Origin: Thermodesulfovibrionales bacterium
GTDB taxonomy: Bacteria > Nitrospirota > Thermodesulfovibrionia > Thermodesulfovibrionales > Dissulfurispiraceae
Reading direction: 5' to 3'
Length of the DNA stretch: 64,000 bases
Assembly: GCA_020062545.1 (NCBI GenBank)
Contig: JAGUWD010000009.1
Coordinates: 1-64,000, forward strand
This document shows, one piece after another, positions 33,738 through 55,143 of this stretch. A program made the position numbers and the translations under genes. Below the pieces are notes generated by a model, which had not been told where the DNA came from, did no database searches, and saw only the letters and a program-made list of their open reading frames with translations. Numbering within the stretch: position 1 is the first letter of the stretch; the number at the start of each line of letters is the position of its first letter.

Positions 33738-34486
33738 ATTAGGGACACATCCCATATTTCTTGACATTAAAATAGCTGTTCTGTAAAATTATTAAATGCC
33801 AAGGATAGCAAGAGCGGTTGCGGTAGGATTCCCTCATCATATCATCCAAAGGGGGAATAATAAAGAGAAAGTCTTCTTTGAAGAGGAAGACAGACAAAAG
33901 TATTTAGAATTGCTCAAAAAATATTCAGATAAATGGGAATGCCCGATCCTTGCGTATTGCCTTATGAACAACCATGTTCATTTACTTGTGAGACCTAAAC
34001 GCGAGGAATCTCTTTATAAAATGATGCAAGGTCTAACTCTTTGTTACACCCAGTATATCAACAGGAAATATGAAAAGACAGGAAGATTGTGGGAAAGCAG
34101 ATACCATTCGTGCATAGTTGACAGAGAGCATTACTTATGGGCTGCCGCAAGATACATTGAGCAGAATCCAAAGCGGGCAAAAATAGTCAAAAAAGAAGAA
34201 GAATATCCGTATTCAAGTGCAAGGGCTCATGTTGCAGGCAGGAGAGACGACATCTTGGGCGAAAAGCTTTTTAACGATAATCAGAGGAAAGATTATATAG
34301 CATTTATCAGAGAGAGCATTACAGAAGAGGAGATAAAACGCTTAAAATATTCCACGAGAACTGGAAGACCCTTTGGTAGAGAGGAGTTTATAAAGAGGAT
34401 GGAAAAGAAGCTGAACAAAAGGTTTATACTACAGAGACCTGGCAGACCAAAAGGGCGAAAGAGTTAATAAGGGATGTGTCCCTAAT
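33738..34486. mobile_element. RAYT-type transposable element with inverted ends
   Basis: Perfect 16-bp terminal inverted repeats: ATTAGGGACACATCCC at 33738-33753 and its complement at 34471-34486. Each end is itself a small hairpin (GGGA-CACA-TCCC). They enclose a single transposase gene of the REP-associated Y1 type. It abuts the receptor remnant on one side and the Ehr small-subunit gene on the other (34487-34557 holds nothing I recognise). Confidence 0.75.
33796..34467 (+). CDS. REP-associated tyrosine transposase
   Basis: 223 residues, Y1 (HUH) transposase of the RAYT group. MPRIARAVAVGFPHHIIQRGNN at the start, the HUH motif in MNNHVHLLVRP, and the catalytic Tyr in AARYIEQNPKRA. Basic C-terminus with GRPKGRK. 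TTGACA (33761-33766), a 17-nt spacer and TAAAAT (33784-33789) lie 6 nt before the ATG, with no ribosome site, so the mRNA is likely leaderless. Confidence 0.9.
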   Translation: MPRIARAVAVGFPHHIIQRGNNKEKVFFEEEDRQKYLELLKKYSDKWECPILAYCLMNNHVHLLVRPKREESLYKMMQGLTLCYTQYINRKYEKTGRLWESRYHSCIVDREHYLWAAARYIEQNPKRAKIVKKEEEYPYSSARAHVAGRRDDILGEKLFNDNQRKDYIAFIRESITEEEIKRLKYSTRTGRPFGREEFIKRMEKKLNKRFILQRPGRPKGRKS

Positions 34487-47614: not shown

Positions 47615-47656
47615 GAAAATTTTAGATCCAAATCCCGATTTAGAACTTATGCTATT

Positions 47657-47784
47657 GGTAGGGATGATTGCCTGGAGCGACTTCGGCAGCCCAAGCGTAA
47701 CATGGATGTTTAAGCGGGCTGGCGTAGCTTCGGAGGAAGGCTGGATGCCTTCCGAGAATGAAGCGGAAGGCTGTCATCTCTACC
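47657..47784 (-). ncRNA. Structured 3' element, copy 1
   Basis: A 128-nt element closed by an outer stem (GGTAGGGATGAT facing GTCATCTCTACC). Its core of about 98 nt aligns without gaps with the reverse of the copy at 52867-53004. Two inner hairpins have TGGAT loops. Stem bases differ in pairs between copies (G-C to A-T, A-T to T-A, A-T to G-C twice), which keeps pairing. It lies 46 nt after the threonine dehydratase stop, on that gene's strand. Confidence 0.6.
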
Positions 47785-47830
47785 AAAAAAATTTCTATCT
47801 CTGTTTTTGGGGAAAGATGGCCAAAATGAA

Positions 47831-49015
47831 CTATTGAATAATCCGAAAACCAGCCTCTCTTATGGCGGATATTATCTCTTCTAAATGCCCATGCCCTTTT
47901 GTCTCTACAGTAAATATCACCGGTGTCTTTCCGATGGGCACATCCTGAGAAAGCCTATCATGGACAACATTGAGGATATTTCCACGTTGTACAGCAATAA
48001 TCCCTGTGATTTTATGCAGACCGCCGGGCACATCATCCACAATGACCTTAAACACGCCTATCCTGCCGCTTGAGACCAGACCCTTATGGATTATCCTGTC
48101 TATGAGGGTGAAATCGATATTACCTCCGCTCACAACCAATACTATTCTTTTGCCTTTAAGTCTCTCTTTTTGCTCTATCAAAGCGGCAAGCGGAACAGCC
48201 CCTGCACCCTCAACAACAAGCTTTTTCCTCTCAAGGAATAACAGCACGGACATTGCAATGGATTCTTCGCTGGCCTTGATAATATCATCCACATATCTCT
48301 GCATGACCTCGAATGTTTTATTCCCGATCCTGCCAACAGCTATTCCATCTGCAAGAGTGGGATGAGGAGTCCTTTCCACAATTCCCTTTGTATGAAAGGA
48401 GTCATATGCAGATGTGGCAGATACTGTTTGGATGCCTATAACTTCTGTCTTCGGAGAGAGATTTTTAATTGCTATAGATATCCCTGAAATAAGCCCGCCG
48501 CCACCAACAGGAACAAGGACAGCATCTATATCCTGTAATTCGTTTATGATCTCAAGCCCTATGGTTCCCTGACCTTCTATTATATCTTCATCGTCAAATG
48601 CATGGATGAATGTGTAATCCTTCTGAGAAATTGCATAATTCAAGGCATCGCTAAAAGTCTCGCCATGCAGGACGACCTCTGCGCCATATCCCTTTGTCGC
48701 CTCCTGTTTGACAATGGATGCAGTCAGAGGCATAACAATCTTTGCCTTTATTCCGAGTCCCGCAGCAGCAAAAGCAACGCCCTGTGCATGGTTGCCCATG
48801 GATGCGGCAATGACCTTATCGGTCTCGAGTTTCATTAATTTATTGAATGCCCCCCGCACCTTAAACGAGCCTGTCTTCTGAAGATTTTCAGCCTTTATAT
48901 AAACCTCTGCGCCGAACATTTTGCTGAATGAATTGGAATAGATCAGAGGCGTTCTGTGAATATATGTAGATATGGATTGCAGGGCATCCTGAATCGATGA
49001 AAGGTCAATATTCAT
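47831..49015 (-). CDS. ilvA: Threonine dehydratase (threonine ammonia-lyase) with ACT domain
   Basis: 394 residues. PLP enzyme that deaminates threonine to 2-oxobutyrate. PLP lysine in KTGSFKVRGAFNKL, then ASMGNHAQGVAFAA, and the Gly-rich phosphate loop VGGGGLISG. C-terminal ACT domain (about 325-394) for allosteric control. At about 390 residues it is the shorter form, between biosynthetic IlvA and catabolic TdcB; the symbol is therefore tentative. Confidence 0.88.
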   Translation of the reverse strand: MNIDLSSIQDALQSISTYIHRTPLIYSNSFSKMFGAEVYIKAENLQKTGSFKVRGAFNKLMKLETDKVIAASMGNHAQGVAFAAAGLGIKAKIVMPLTASIVKQEATKGYGAEVVLHGETFSDALNYAISQKDYTFIHAFDDEDIIEGQGTIGLEIINELQDIDAVLVPVGGGGLISGISIAIKNLSPKTEVIGIQTVSATSAYDSFHTKGIVERTPHPTLADGIAVGRIGNKTFEVMQRYVDDIIKASEESIAMSVLLFLERKKLVVEGAGAVPLAALIEQKERLKGKRIVLVVSGGNIDFTLIDRIIHKGLVSSGRIGVFKVIVDDVPGGLHKITGIIAVQRGNILNVVHDRLSQDVPIGKTPVIFTVETKGHGHLEEIISAIREAGFRIIQ

Positions 49016-49100
49016 AATGATTTCATAATTAAATCATAAATTAAGACATAAATCTATAAAAATTGACAATCTATTCAGCCTTAATGTAAAGTTTTTGTAA

Positions 49101-49952
49101 ATGGTGAAAAAGATTTTTATAATCATACCCTTCCTTGTTCTGATATTTTCTGCTATTCCAAATGCATATTCAACTGGAAAGCAGTATATAGGCATCCTTC
49201 CCTATTATGCACCTGATAAAATATGGCATTTCTATAAGCCCTTTATAGATTATCTCAACAAGACAACAGGCATTCCATGGGAACTAAAGCTTTACCACAA
49301 TTATGACGCAATAATTGACGGCATATGCAGCAACGAGATTTCCATAGCCTATCTCGGACCAAACCCTTTCGGTCTTGCTTACGAAAAATGCAAGGTAAAA
49401 CCTTTGCTGGTAATCCTCGGAGACGATGGAAAGCCTTATTATAAGTCAATAATCTTCACCAATAACCACAAAATCAGTTCCTTAAAAGAACTTAAAGGCA
49501 AACCCTTTGCCTTTGGAGACAAAGACTCCACCTCCTCCAATATTATCCCCAGAAAAATGCTTGAAGACGCGGGAATAACAATGGACATGATAAAACCGGT
49601 TTTTCTGAAAAGCCATGAAAAGATTATAAATGCAGTTGCAAGAAATGAGGCAACAGCAGGCGCTGTCAAGGTATCGGTATTCGAAAAATTCAAGGGATTG
49701 AAATTTAAAGTATTAAAGGTTTCAGAACTGATCCCCCATCACTCGTTCTGCACCGCATCAAATATCAACCCTGACATCGAGAAGAAATTTGTGAATGCAC
49801 TCCTGAAACTAAAACCGATACACGATAGTTCTGATAGAAATATCGTGAAAAACTGGGACAATGAATTACAGTACGGCTTTACACTGCCTCCTAAAGATTA
49901 TATTCAGAACATCCTGAAACTCCATAGACTATTAGAAAAATATAATGATTGA
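49101..49952 (+). CDS. PhnD-like periplasmic binding protein
   Basis: 283 residues with a signal peptide (about 1-24). Phosphate/phosphite/phosphonate-binding (PhnD, PBP type 2) family: YIGILPYYAPDKIWHFYKPFIDYLNKTTG, EISIAYLGPNPFGLAYEKC and KGKPFAFGDKDSTSSNIIPRKMLEDAG. No ABC transporter genes nearby; it overlaps the hybrid kinase gene by 8 nt, so it probably serves as a ligand sensor for that kinase. TTGACA-18-TAAAGT ends 8 nt before the ATG. Confidence 0.85.
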   Translation: MVKKIFIIIPFLVLIFSAIPNAYSTGKQYIGILPYYAPDKIWHFYKPFIDYLNKTTGIPWELKLYHNYDAIIDGICSNEISIAYLGPNPFGLAYEKCKVKPLLVILGDDGKPYYKSIIFTNNHKISSLKELKGKPFAFGDKDSTSSNIIPRKMLEDAGITMDMIKPVFLKSHEKIINAVARNEATAGAVKVSVFEKFKGLKFKVLKVSELIPHHSFCTASNINPDIEKKFVNALLKLKPIHDSSDRNIVKNWDNELQYGFTLPPKDYIQNILKLHRLLEKYND

Positions 49953-52641
49953 CAGAAACAGCATAAGATTCAAAATCATAACTCCCTTACTCATCTTCCT
50001 TACAATCATAATGCTGTCACTTCTTATTGTCGGCTATCAGGTCTCGAAAAATGTATTCTGGGAATACCACACATTCATCATATCCAGACATTCATCCGAA
50101 GTCCAGAAAATAGTAAATACCGCAATTAACGAACTCACAACATCCGGGCTCCTCGACAAAGAGATGGTTGTGGATGCAAAGAAAAAAGCGGTGATCGACG
50201 AGATAAAATCATACTGGTTAAGCAACAACCTCGCCGGGTTCATAAAAACCACAGACGGCAATATAGTCTATTCATCCCTCAATAGCACATTGATGAAATC
50301 GCTTGAGCCGCATCTCCCTGAAGATGGAGATTTCCACTTTAGCAAGACATTCACACATATCGGCGGCTCTGTAATAAATATTCCACTTTGGAACTGTAAG
50401 GCGGTCTTCATAGAAGAACCCCTCATCCCCTTTATATACCTCTTATCCAGAGACACAACGACGGCACTTATGGCTCCTTTGATTGCCATAAGCTGTATAC
50501 TGATTGCCGTAGTTACCTTTCTTGTCATGCGGAAAAATCTCCAGAAGCCCATAGAAGCTATGATATCCAATATACAGGCCGGTCAAGAGGTGAATGGGAC
50601 AGGCATAACAGAACTGGATACGGTTGGTTCTGCCATAAACAATGCATTCGAAAGGCTCAACAAAAAGACAGCACAGTACCAGACACTTCACAACATTGCC
50701 GTATCCATACATGAATATTTCTCGATAGACGAAATACTCAATTTAATCATTGACAGAGCCAGCCAGTTGATAAATGCAGAGCTTGCTGCCATTACCCTCT
50801 ATGACGACAAGGGGAAATTCAAAAGACTCATTACAAGAGGCACAACAATAAGAACCGGAGATGCATTGCCAGAAGGCAAAGGACTGCTAAAATTTATGCG
50901 TCTTTCCATTACACCGGTTCGCATAGACAATGTATCGGAGCATCATGCATTCAGCGGCTCATTTCCCGAAGGCCATCCTGTAATAAGGAATCTGCTGGCA
51001 TATCCCATATTTTCGGGTGAAGGGAGGCCTGTCGGCGCTCTATATTTCGGCAATAAACCAGAAGGTTTTACCGATGATGATGAGAGCATCCTCAAGGCCA
51101 TTTCTGCAGACGCAGCAATAGCACTCAATAAGGCCGAAAACCTGATGCAGCTTCAAAGATTCCAGCAGGTCATAGACTCTGCCTTCGATGTAATTGTAGT
51201 TACTGATGCCGACGGATACATCACATACGTCAACCCTGCATTTGAAACCGTTACGGGCTATTCAGTGCAAGAGGCCATCGGCAAAAAGACCAATATATTG
51301 AAAAGCGGCTACCACGATGAAGACTTTTATAAAAACCTGTGGAATACCATCAAGGCAGGCGACGCATGGAAAGGAGAATTCATAAACAGGAAAAAGAACG
51401 GAGAGATATATTATGCATCGTCGGTCATCTTTCCAATTTATGCAGAAGGAGATGTCCAATATGCCTCTATACAGAGGGATGTGACACAGGAGAAAAAGCT
51501 TTACGAACAGCTCTTAAGGGCGCAGAAGATGGAGGCAATCGGGACACTTGCAGGCGGCATAGCCCATGACTTCAACAACCTCCTGACAGCAATACTCGGG
51601 TATTCAGAGATTATGCTGGGCATGACAAAAGAGGGAGAGCCGTTCTATAGACCTGCAACCATCATTAACAATGCAGCACAGAAAGGTGCGGATCTGGCAA
51701 AGAAGATCCTCATGGTAACCAGAAAAGAGAAGATGGAGGCAAAGCCTGTCAATATAAACGAGATAATCCACAACTCCATGGAGCTCCTTCAGAGGAGCAT
51801 TCCCAAGAACATAGAGATTGTAATAAATCTTAAAGAAGACGTCCCAAAAATAATGGCTGACCCCTCACAGATGCAGCAGGTGATCATGAACCTTGCCGTG
51901 AATGCCCGCGATGCCATGCAGGATGGAGGAAGATTGATCATAGAAACGGCTGTGGTGGGCACAGAGAACGGTGCTGCCAACGGCATACCTTTTGACAAAG
52001 GTGGGTTCATAAAATTATCCGTTTCCGATACAGGCACAGGCATGGACACAGAGACACAGAGAAAGATATTCGATCCGTTCTTCACAACAAAGGAGACAGG
52101 AAAAGGCACAGGACTCGGGCTCTACATAGTTCATTCAGTGGTAAGCAATCACGGAGGATACGTAAACCTCTATAGCGAACCGTTCAAAGGGACAAGGTTC
52201 AATATATACCTGCCCATCACAAAAACCGCTGATATGGAGGAATCAGGCGAAGCTGAAGATATAATGGGTTCGGGGACTATCCTCGTGATAGACGATGAGA
52301 CTGATGTCAGGGAACTATGCAAGGATATGCTGGAACCCCTTGGATACACTGTCCTGCTTGCAGGAAGCGGCAGCGACGGCATAAACCTCTTCAGAGCGAT
52401 GAAGGATAAAATATCACTTGTTATTGTTGACATGATAATGCCAAAAATGGGGGGCAGCGAGGTTTTTCAGGCGCTGAAGACAATAAAGCCAGATATAAAG
52501 GTAATACTCTGTTCAGGCTATAGCCATGAAGGCTTTGCAGGAATAGACAAACTACTGAAAAGCGGTGCCGCAGGGTTTGTACAAAAGCCATTTACTCGCC
52601 ATTCAATCGCACAGGCCATCAAAAAGGCGCTGTCAGAATAG
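49945..52641 (+). CDS. Hybrid histidine kinase with GAF, PAS and receiver
   Basis: 898 residues. Two membrane segments (about 10-32 and 176-196) around a periplasmic domain, HAMP-like linker, GAF (about 255-397), PAS/PAC (400-520), HisKA with His541 ([21 protein letters not shown]), HATPase ([36 protein letters not shown]), and a C-terminal receiver with its Asp in [12 protein letters not shown] phosphorelay kinase, likely sensing through the PhnD-like protein with which it is translationally coupled. No separate output regulator is adjacent. Confidence 0.92.
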
Positions 52642-52663
52642 AAAAGGAAGGAGATTTATAAAA

Positions 52664-52867
52664 ATGACAGAGACTACTTTAAAAATCGAAGGCATGAGCT
52701 GCCAGCACTGCGTGATGAGGGTGAAAAAGGCCGTCGATGCAGTTGCAGGTGTTACAAAATCAGATGTGGCTGTGGGCAGTGCCACTATTCAGTTCGATGA
52801 ATCAAAAGCGAAAAAAGAAGACATCAAGGCAGCAATCGAGAAAGCAGGATATAAGGTAATAAGTTAA
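52664..52867 (+). CDS. Heavy-metal-associated (HMA) metallochaperone
   Basis: 67 residues from ATG 52664, 9 nt after AGGAGA; the frame from 52565 is a shadow of the kinase end. Complete HMA domain: LKIEGMSCQHCVMRVKKAV (metal site MSCQHC) and AIEKAGYKVIS. CopZ/MerP-like copper or mercury chaperone. No metal ATPase gene is close by. Confidence 0.92.
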   Translation: MTETTLKIEGMSCQHCVMRVKKAVDAVAGVTKSDVAVGSATIQFDESKAKKEDIKAAIEKAGYKVIS

Positions 52868-53004
52868 AACAGAGAGCAGGTAAAGCATTTCCGCTTCATT
52901 CTCGAATGGCATCCAGCCATTCTCCGAAGCAAAGACAGCCCGCTTAGGCATCCATGCCTCGCTTGGGCTGTCCAAGTCGCTCCAATACTTTGCCTGCTCT
53001 CTGT
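52867..53004 (+). ncRNA. Structured 3' element, copy 2
   Basis: A 138-nt element beginning at the HMA gene's stop codon. AACAGAGAGCAGG (52867-52879) pairs perfectly with CCTGCTCTCTGTT (52992-53004). The inner part is the reverse of copy 1 (47657-47784), so each copy has the same orientation relative to its upstream gene. The outer stems are unrelated in sequence between copies. It may also mark the convergent pheT end. Confidence 0.6.
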
Positions 53005-53010
53005 TATGTA

Positions 53011-55143
53011 TTATGTTCTCAGTTGTCCTTTGGTCTTATCGAGAATATAATCCACCAGTGATTTGTGCAGGGCATCGATTTCGTCATCCTTCAGGGTCCT
53101 GTCAGATGCCCTGTATCTCACATTAAACGCAATGCTCTTCTTGCCTTCAGGGATATTCTTTCCCTGATAGACATCAAAAATATATGTATCCTCTATCAGG
53201 TCAGAAGGATATGATTTTAGCCATTTCATGAGCATCTCTGCTTCGAGTAAAGAATCGACAACAATCGCTGTATCCCTTTCTATGTATGGATACCTTGGCA
53301 GCGGTCTGTATTTCACCACCTGCATTGCATACGGGATTATGCTGTCTATGTCTATCTCCATCACAATAACAGAGGGCTTGTGTGCCTTTATATCGAGAGA
53401 ATCCACAATAGCAGGAGAAAGGGCACCAACATATCCTGTTTTGACGGACTGTCTACTGGCTACCGGTAACTGGCTACCAATAAATATATCGGCAGACTGT
53501 CCGGGATGCAAAAAGGGCTCCGATGACCTGACAAAAGAGTAGTCATAAATCCTGAGGTTGTTGAGGATAGCTTCGATAACACCCTTGACGATATAAAAAT
53601 CCGGCGTGTCATCCCTGTACAGTGCCTTGCCTTTCTCCTTGTAATAAATGGCGGCAAGATGTTCACGCTCAATGGGCAACTGGCTACTGGCTACCGATAA
53701 CTGGCTACTAATAAATACCCTTGCTATCTCGAATAACCTCAATTCCCTGTTACCGTGAGATAAATTTTGCACCAGATTTTTTATAAATGAAGGAATAAGG
53801 GTTGTCCTCATAAAGGAGTCCTCTGTTTTCAATGGATTCTTTATCTGCACGAGATTTCTTCTTTCATCATCTCCGTTGATTCCTAATAAATCAATGTCCT
53901 GCAGGCCCATGAAGCTGTAGTTGATTACCTCTGTAAAACCTGATTTCAAAAATGATTCCTTAATATTGTTTTTAATTTTTAACTCTTGACTCTTGACTCC
54001 CGACCATTGACTGTCTATTCCTATGGTTGCCTTTGGCAGTTGTGCAGGAATCCTGTCGTAGCCATAAATCCTCGCAACCTCTTCTATAACATCGATCTCC
54101 CTCTTTATATCCCTTCTGTATGCCGGAGGCTTTATCTTCAGGCTGTTTACCGACTTTTTCATCTCGAAACCCAGTCCATCGAGACAATCTGCAATCTCTT
54201 CTTTGGTCAGCTTCAATCCGAGTGTCTCATTAACCTTATTGTATCTGACATTTATCTCATCAGGTTTGTATCTCTTTGGATAAATATCTATCTTTCCGCA
54301 AATAGTGCCACCAGCCACTTCCTTCATTAGATATGCTGCCCTGTCAAGGGCCTTCTTGAGCATCTTTATATCCGTTCCCCTTTCGAACCTGTAAGAGGAT
54401 TCTGTCTTCAACCCGAGGGCCTTTGACGTCCTTCTCACAGACACCGGATCAAAATAGGCGCTCTCGATAAATATATCCACAGTGGAATCCGAAACCTCTG
54501 TTTCCATGCCGCCCATAACGCCGGCAATTGCTATCGGTCTTTCAGCATCCCATATAAGCAAAGATTCCTCGGGTATTTCACGCTCGATATTGTCCAGTGT
54601 CCTAAACTTGATCCTTGTCCCTTGACCCTTGACTCTATTAGGCGTGCCGACTATGATACGGCAGCCTTTAATCGTTTTAAGGTCAAAGGCATGGAGGGGA
54701 TGACCCAATTCCAAAAGCACGTAGTTCGTAACATCCACAATATTGTTGATCGATCTTATACTACACTTTTCGAGCCTTTTCCTCAGCCACTCAGGTGAAT
54801 GGCCTATCTTGAGATTCCTCACAACCCTTCCTGCATACCTGTGGCAGAGTTCTGCATCTACAATATCAACATTAAAATCAAGCTCCCCGGTTTCTGCAAG
54901 GACATCGTGCTCAGGAAATACAACAGGGGTTTTATATGAAGCAGAAAGCTCCCGCGCAATGCCGATAATGCTCAGACAGTCAGGCCTGTTCGGGGTAACA
55001 TTTACCTCAAAGACAACATCATCACTGCCCACCTGCTCTACAGCTTCAACCTCAAGGCCTATCATGGTAAGCCTGTGGGCCACATCATGAGGCGACTCCT
55101 TAATGTCGATAAATTCTTTTAACCATTCAAAAGGGACGCGCAT
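53011..55143 (-). CDS. pheT: Phenylalanyl-tRNA synthetase beta subunit
   Basis: 710 residues. MRVPFEWLKEFIDIKESP start, B3/B4 domain, B5 domain, catalytic-like core and anticodon-binding FDX-ACB domain (YRASDRTLKDDEIDALHKSLVDYI). No tRNA-binding EMAP-like insert near residues 40-150, so a shorter bacterial form. Four places carry peptide from short word repeats: NRVKGQGTRIKF, IDSQWSGVKSQELKIKNN, SSQLSVASSQLPIE and GSQLPVASRQSVKTG. Starts directly after the pheS stop. Confidence 0.95.
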   Translation of the reverse strand: MRVPFEWLKEFIDIKESPHDVAHRLTMIGLEVEAVEQVGSDDVVFEVNVTPNRPDCLSIIGIARELSASYKTPVVFPEHDVLAETGELDFNVDIVDAELCHRYAGRVVRNLKIGHSPEWLRKRLEKCSIRSINNIVDVTNYVLLELGHPLHAFDLKTIKGCRIIVGTPNRVKGQGTRIKFRTLDNIEREIPEESLLIWDAERPIAIAGVMGGMETEVSDSTVDIFIESAYFDPVSVRRTSKALGLKTESSYRFERGTDIKMLKKALDRAAYLMKEVAGGTICGKIDIYPKRYKPDEINVRYNKVNETLGLKLTKEEIADCLDGLGFEMKKSVNSLKIKPPAYRRDIKREIDVIEEVARIYGYDRIPAQLPKATIGIDSQWSGVKSQELKIKNNIKESFLKSGFTEVINYSFMGLQDIDLLGINGDDERRNLVQIKNPLKTEDSFMRTTLIPSFIKNLVQNLSHGNRELRLFEIARVFISSQLSVASSQLPIEREHLAAIYYKEKGKALYRDDTPDFYIVKGVIEAILNNLRIYDYSFVRSSEPFLHPGQSADIFIGSQLPVASRQSVKTGYVGALSPAIVDSLDIKAHKPSVIVMEIDIDSIIPYAMQVVKYRPLPRYPYIERDTAIVVDSLLEAEMLMKWLKSYPSDLIEDTYIFDVYQGKNIPEGKKSIAFNVRYRASDRTLKDDEIDALHKSLVDYILDKTKGQLRT

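Follow-up and report, generated by a model that had tools for sequence, protein, structure and literature searches.

The BOX, RUP, and SPRITE repeats of pneumococcus are shorter than 200 bp, intergenic, predicted to form stem-loops if transcribed, and probably moved in trans (PMC3049150), and REPINs are miniature, non-autonomous, palindromic extragenic elements that fold as single-stranded DNA (ssDNA) or mRNA (PMC3116915). CsrB, CsrC, and RsmX-Y-Z are decoy small RNAs (sRNAs), in which GGA motifs in hairpin loops sequester CsrA dimers (PMC7652899, PMC7366521). Here we describe a structured element of ~130–140 nt, two copies of which lie in a 64,000-nt stretch of a Thermodesulfovibrionales bacterium (positions 1 to 64,000 of contig JAGUWD010000009.1, assembly GCA_020062545.1; hereafter the window). 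The element family is previously unlisted, large, mobile, and dispersed, and the best overall explanation, held with middling confidence, is that its members are small, interspersed, mobile repeats whose structured RNA binds CsrA and probably serves as a decoy.

The element behaves like a BOX/RUP-type repeat and fails the tested marks of both REPIN/RAYT systems and standard miniature inverted-repeat transposable elements (MITEs). It shares with BOX, RUP, and SPRITE small dispersed intergenic copies, orthologous sites that are empty, and a transcript able to fold, but differs in host, sequence, and fold, in having variable arms around a conserved core, in that one particular strand is shown to fold, and in hairpin tips that fit CsrA. 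As with REPINs, it is a palindromic miniature; however, no linked RAYT was found, site-specific arms enclose a three-way junction, and many copies occur in a genome in which no Y1 transposase was detected. Its GGA motifs sit in hairpin loops and are predicted to sequester CsrA dimers, like those of the Csr/Rsm decoys, but the latter are genes devoted to this role and rich in sites, and are best known from Gammaproteobacteria; the element, in contrast, offers two hairpin sites per copy and is scattered in tens of insertable copies over the genomes of CsrA-FliW bacteria. The attC sites of integrons are recombination sites that, like the element, fold in a strand-specific manner and have paired arms, but the RYYYAAC/GTTRRRY ends were not seen in the copies read and there are no cassettes; an attC identity of the arms was thus rejected.

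Predicted fold and folded strand

The element consists of a conserved core of ~96 nt between inverted arms of ~18 bp (P1, 17–22 bp). In the consensus fold, the core between the paired arms is a three-way junction with two hairpins: hairpin 1 is interrupted by an internal loop, and helix 3, whose internal loop (CGGAG / CGAGAAU) is conserved, encloses hairpin 2. This fold is borne out by covariation across 67 copies, in which 97.6% of 3001 cells are paired (83.2% in shuffles), both-sided changes occur at 26 of 45 pairs, and compensatory cells number 425, as against 107 in shuffles. The covariation score was 0.431, compared with 0.143 for shuffles and 0.09 or less for slid controls, in which pairing dropped to 35–46%; none of 500 shuffles reached any of the pairing or covariation measures. 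Covariation is seen at 17 of 18 arm pairs, and the only strongly conserved arm positions are T1, G4, A7, and G10, numbered from the core. An earlier note on this DNA, made from the two window copies, had proposed selection on RNA or ssDNA structure, and with more copies the pairing constraint became stronger rather than disappearing.

On the core(+) strand, the arms of 77 copies contain 1164 Watson-Crick pairs, 97 G·T pairs, 14 A·C pairs, and 34 other mismatches, counts that are not all independent events, as the copies share ancestry. The core(+) strand is the functional fold, because G·T outnumbers A·C there regardless of the direction of the neighboring genes: the G·T:A·C counts are 39:6 where the folded strand is antisense to its neighbors, 21:2 where it is sense, 18:4 between convergent genes, and 17:1 between divergent genes, and in distant relatives they are 40:6 in csrA-lacking and 41:9 in csrA-bearing genomes. 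Since the excess is present, and equal in kind, in all four gene contexts, a transcription-linked mutation bias of the strand was ruled out as its source. The element provides, independently of CsrA, an unusually clean case of a strand-specific G·U excess revealing the functional strand of a dispersed repeat. Because G·U is a normal pair in RNA, the + strand most likely acts as RNA rather than ssDNA.

A rather unlikely alternative is that the folded strand matters as ssDNA, its hairpins being recognized by a strand-specific recombinase (HUH/Y1 or other, in the style of REPIN/RAYT or IS200/IS605) and its CsrA-like loops being coincidental. Strand specificity that is independent of gene orientation would suit ssDNA recognition, DNA folding favors the same strand, albeit weakly, and Y1 transposases are common in these genomes, with one in the window (33796–34467). 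However, G·T in DNA is costlier than G·U in RNA, and one genome rich in copies (G024; G numbers denote the genomes compared, G000 being this genome, and L numbers individual element sites) has no Y1_Tnp match, while the two Y1 genes inspected, in the window and in G001, carry different palindromes (AGGGACACATCCC and GGGACAGCG, respectively), so that a RAYT was rejected as the partner of the element. A 9-bp target duplication at L008 also speaks against this alternative, as Y1 elements are not known to produce one. Finally, ssDNA recognition leaves unexplained why GGA loops track csrA.

Dispersal, insertion, and separate histories of arms and core

BLAST of this 2.6-Mb genome gave 24 credible loci, namely 21 full-length copies, two with deletions, and one with an extra hairpin inserted; matches were also found in 21 of 60 relatives, with a maximum of 78 first-look candidates in one of them. 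In a public genome collection, the element was matched to named metagenome-assembled genomes of Nitrospirota, for example GWB2_47_37, FK1.bin72, and UBA665. A covariance-model search of 246 Nitrospirota genomes added full-length relatives in other families, other classes, and one other phylum branch, in which the junction segments (U)GAGCGG, CUCGGAG, and CGAGAAUGAG are retained and the arms and hairpin stems are replaced. A second element type (L380–L383, L389–L407), with the same arms and junction, was observed in csrA-lacking families; its hairpin 1 reads UUUUGCC..GGCAAAA, it has a conserved GAUAUUCC-like segment, and it lacks GGA tips.

The statement of the earlier note that the element matches no known family agrees with the database searches. 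Rfam had no match at gathering score, and at a relaxed E-value nothing credible near the elements; its CsrB/CsrC/RsmX-Y-Z models had no hit in the window at gathering score and none at E up to 5 at two loci. No transposon-end family was found to match, a possibility that the note itself had raised. There was no match in either a phage or a plasmid collection, and carriage by phages or plasmids was rejected, two viral-contig pattern matches lying in coding sequence and not fitting the covariance model. A mobile repeat with hairpin tips fitting CsrA was found nowhere in the open-access literature searched. Thus, the structural claim of the earlier note stood, but the note had missed the dispersal and mobility of the element, the separate histories of its arms and core, and the meaning of its TGGAT loops.

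Many sites are empty in sister species, lacking arms and core alike (for example, TCCTCCAATCGTAAACC in G015 compared with the filled site in G028), and the copies are therefore insertions in which arms and core arrived jointly; a pre-existing palindromic target was rejected, as the arms are absent from empty sites. An exception is found at G002:C1:1979700-1980800 (L285), where a core-less palindrome, GCAGGGTGATG-GCATCACCCTAC, stands at the place of a full element with matching arms in G012. A separate host repeat of ~180 bp, with ends ATCCAGCGATAAGGATAAG, exists in about a dozen unoccupied copies in this genome and in G001, G002, and G012 (L333–L348), and in five occupied copies with arms and core at the center, four of them here (L013/L015/L017/L021) and one in G015 (L349). 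The 9-bp direct repeat at L008 abuts the arms, and shorter ones occur at L127 (about 8 bp) and L125 (7 bp), but no excess of direct repeats was found over all copies, and target duplication is probably not a general feature. At L197, L249, and L287, other palindromic inserts interrupt the core with the arms still paired, which suggests that structured sites attract further insertions.

More detailed comparisons of individual sites showed that arms and core are decoupled. The cores of L001, L002, and L003 are 96–99% identical, and the identity of their arms, 0.50–0.61, is that of random pairs (0.58); similarly, the core of copy 1 in the window is 99% identical to that of another copy in the same genome, and the arms of the two are unrelated. 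Orthologous sites, by contrast, retain their arms (0.95 for both L003 vs. L033 and L126 vs. L239). Between L127 and L259, the arms are 97.5%, the near flanks about 98%, and the core 85% identical, with 14 of 96 core positions differing, many of them in a compensatory manner. At the L003 site, where the arms are homologous, G001 and G015 carry the core in the orientation opposite to that in G000 and G012, and G024 has a core-deleted remnant, likewise in the inverted orientation. Further inverted cores were found at L010 and L022, and less certain ones at L049/L054 and L132/L264, because the arms there differ; core-less remnants occur at L173, L289, and L298. These alignments show that arms persist at shared sites and stay paired by compensatory change, and that cores are flipped between the arms or exchanged between copies, the core of another subfamily taking their place; the simplest mechanism would be recombination, both of the inverted arms with each other and of cores with cores. 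The family thus presents a case of one element whose arms and core have separate histories.

Such histories could also be those of a functionless MITE or palindromic repeat, with perfect arms maintained by template-switch correction between inverted repeats and the core homogenized by gene conversion or recent spread. Dispersed, intergenic, and insertable copies, some with target duplications, are compatible with this, and core homogenization together with inversion is typical of inverted-repeat recombination. We nevertheless regard a functionless repeat as unlikely: arm correction gives no reason for a sevenfold excess of G·T over A·C on a single strand, the hairpins within the core covary too, and the structure is kept phylum-wide though most of the sequence changes. 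Furthermore, the terminal repeats are the variable part of the element, the reverse of the usual MITE, and conserved terminal inverted repeats, the mark of MITEs of DDE transposases, were not found, as arms differ among copies with near-identical cores.

Hairpin loops, csrA, and the proposed decoy explanation

The CsrA consensus from SELEX is RUACARGGAUGU, with most selected loops being of six nucleotides and closed by AC/GU, and the target studied by NMR is an ANGGAN hexaloop (PMC7652899). Hairpin 1 of the folded strand, AAC-AUGGAU-GUU, fits both, including the AC/GU closing, and hairpin 2, GGC-UGGAU-GCC, also has GGA in its loop. This genome contains one csrA, encoding a 75-aa protein (Pfam PF02599) with the RNA-contact residues L4 and R44, beside fliW. 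Of 113 copies from csrA-bearing genomes, 107 show GGA in a hairpin loop, 84 of them in both hairpins, whereas in csrA-lacking genomes outside the family of the window such a loop is present in 4 of 23 copies, three of these having GGAAC tips, and in both hairpins of none. The association of GGA with csrA was significant at the genome level (Fisher p = 1.6e-7, with G012 counted against it) and by family (nine csrA+ vs. four csrA− families, p = 0.0014), and within the family of the window any element copy was present in 18/20 csrA+ vs. 3/11 csrA− genomes (p = 0.0007), statistics in which families and genera are not independent points. A count of GGA anywhere within one hairpin type (HP1) was not significant (4/8 vs. 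4/20, p = 0.17), and by eye the cases in csrA− genomes lie outside the hairpin loops.

In the explanation favored here, a non-autonomous insertable element enters a site with its arms and core together, after which the arms are kept paired by compensatory change and the cores are exchanged or inverted. RNA transcribed from the + strand would fold into the three-way-junction scaffold and, in csrA-bearing hosts, since an unpaired GGA appears at each hairpin tip, should bind a CsrA dimer, so that tens of copies per genome would together constitute a distributed CsrA decoy. Transcription of the element, CsrA binding, and the decoy effect are what we infer from sequence. More tentatively, and with somewhat less confidence than the decoy explanation as such, the element may have spread through the phylum with CsrA sites, tens of dispersed invertible copies titrating CsrA, and may survive without its GGA loops where csrA is missing. 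A review describes sRNA decoys and FliW as mutually exclusive restraints on CsrA, no sRNA antagonists having been found in the FliW species studied (PMC7366521). If the explanation is true, a CsrA-FliW bacterium with genome-wide insertable CsrA-type hairpins would break this rule of exclusivity, and the element would exemplify a selfish repeat that is attuned to a global regulator of its host.

Several observations weigh against the decoy explanation. G012 (96% complete) retains GGA loops with no csrA detected, and G041 has csrA, yet GGA is missing from three of the four copies sampled there. Because csrA and GGA loops both track family lines, the association is in part phylogenetic; single-copy GGA calls are rough, G048 having been scored positive by script with GGA at neither visible tip. 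Hosts lacking csrA retain the strand-specific structure, and because they keep this scaffold, CsrA binding cannot be the basic function of the element. In addition, this bacterium already has FliW as a means of restraining CsrA, the flanks of the element hold neither a conserved promoter nor a U-tract, and the freedom of its orientation relative to genes, with flips at shared sites, is ill-suited to a dedicated transcript.

The same freedom of orientation bears on whether the element instead acts in cis, as a terminator, transcript stabilizer, or processing site in the mRNA of the adjacent operon. Copies do lie in short intergenic gaps, often within operons and near stop codons and Shine-Dalgarno sites. 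However, for the 77 copies with both neighbors called, the folded strand is antisense in 34, sense in 19, between convergent genes in 12, and between divergent genes in 12, such that between co-directional genes antisense exceeds sense, and the orientation is reversed at orthologous sites. Neither window copy received a Rho-independent terminator call, the arm is not directly followed by a T-rich run, and a terminator role of the arms was rejected for want of a U-tract. A cis role is thus unlikely because orientation to neighboring genes is free, and we give the cis-acting mRNA element a very low probability; for the same reason—copies lying in every orientation to their neighbors—a distributed decoy is likelier than regulation of adjacent genes.

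One copy, L115 (G015:C78, 1000-1095), was observed immediately after csrA-fliW, in the gap that separates fliW from greA, with the folded strand in sense; this placement may be due to chance among many copies.

The two copies in the window

The two copies pointed out by the earlier note lie at 47655–47786 and 52866–53006 in opposite orientations, and the covariance model finds exactly these two in the window (Table 1). Their cores align, as had been reported, without gaps (96 nt, 85% identity), and both-sided changes recur as described in two of seven pairs of the GGAAGGC/GCCTTCC stem and in two pairs of the AACAT/ATGTT stem, while the outer arms are wholly unlike between copies, each set being self-complementary. 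The TGGAT reading of both hairpin loops holds on the folded strand. The note had also placed both copies downstream of a co-oriented gene, which is correct only if the complement of the folded strand is read: the folded strand of copy 1 is antisense to both neighbors (a GntR/UTRA regulator and an IlvA-type PLP enzyme), and that of copy 2 is in sense, downstream of pheT. In single-sequence folding, the folded strands had z-scores of −6 to −9 relative to shuffles.

Table 1. Positions of the two element copies and their predicted parts in the window.
Feature	Position	Strand	Basis or remarks
Copy 1, 5′ arm TTGGTAGGGATGATTGCC	47655..47672	+	pairs with 47769-47786
Copy 1, conserved core	47673..47768	+ (folded strand)	covariance model match 47656-47785, 144.0 bits
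Copy 1, hairpin 1; AUGGAU loop, GGA at 47704-47706	47684..47724	+	fold; pair counts of helices 2-4; CsrA consensus (PMC7652899)
Copy 1, helix 3 enclosing hairpin 2 (47735-47753); UGGAU loop, GGA at 47743-47745	47727..47764	+	fold; pair counts of helices 5 and 6
Copy 1, 3′ arm GGCTGTCATCTCTACCAA	47769..47786	+	fold
Copy 2, 5′ arm AACAGAGAGCAGGCAAAGTAT	52985..53005	− (folded strand)	pairs with 52868-52888
Copy 2, conserved core	52889..52984	−	fold; covariance model match 52872-53001, 143.8 bits
Copy 2, GGA loops, read on − strand	hairpin 1, 52951-52953; hairpin 2, 52912-52914	−	fold
Copy 2, 3′ arm	52868..52888	− (folded strand)	fold

Two further features of the window were observed. The RAYT/Y1 transposase gene at 33796–34467 is flanked by its own palindrome, AGGGACACATCCC, and is not linked to the element. 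The pheT gene (53011–55143, − strand) contains, at 53448–53717, in-frame copies of a 39-nt repeat (ACTGGCTACTGGCTACCGATAACTGG...) encoding SQLPVASRQ / SQLSVASSQLP peptides, reminiscent of the palindromic inserts known inside Rickettsia proteins.

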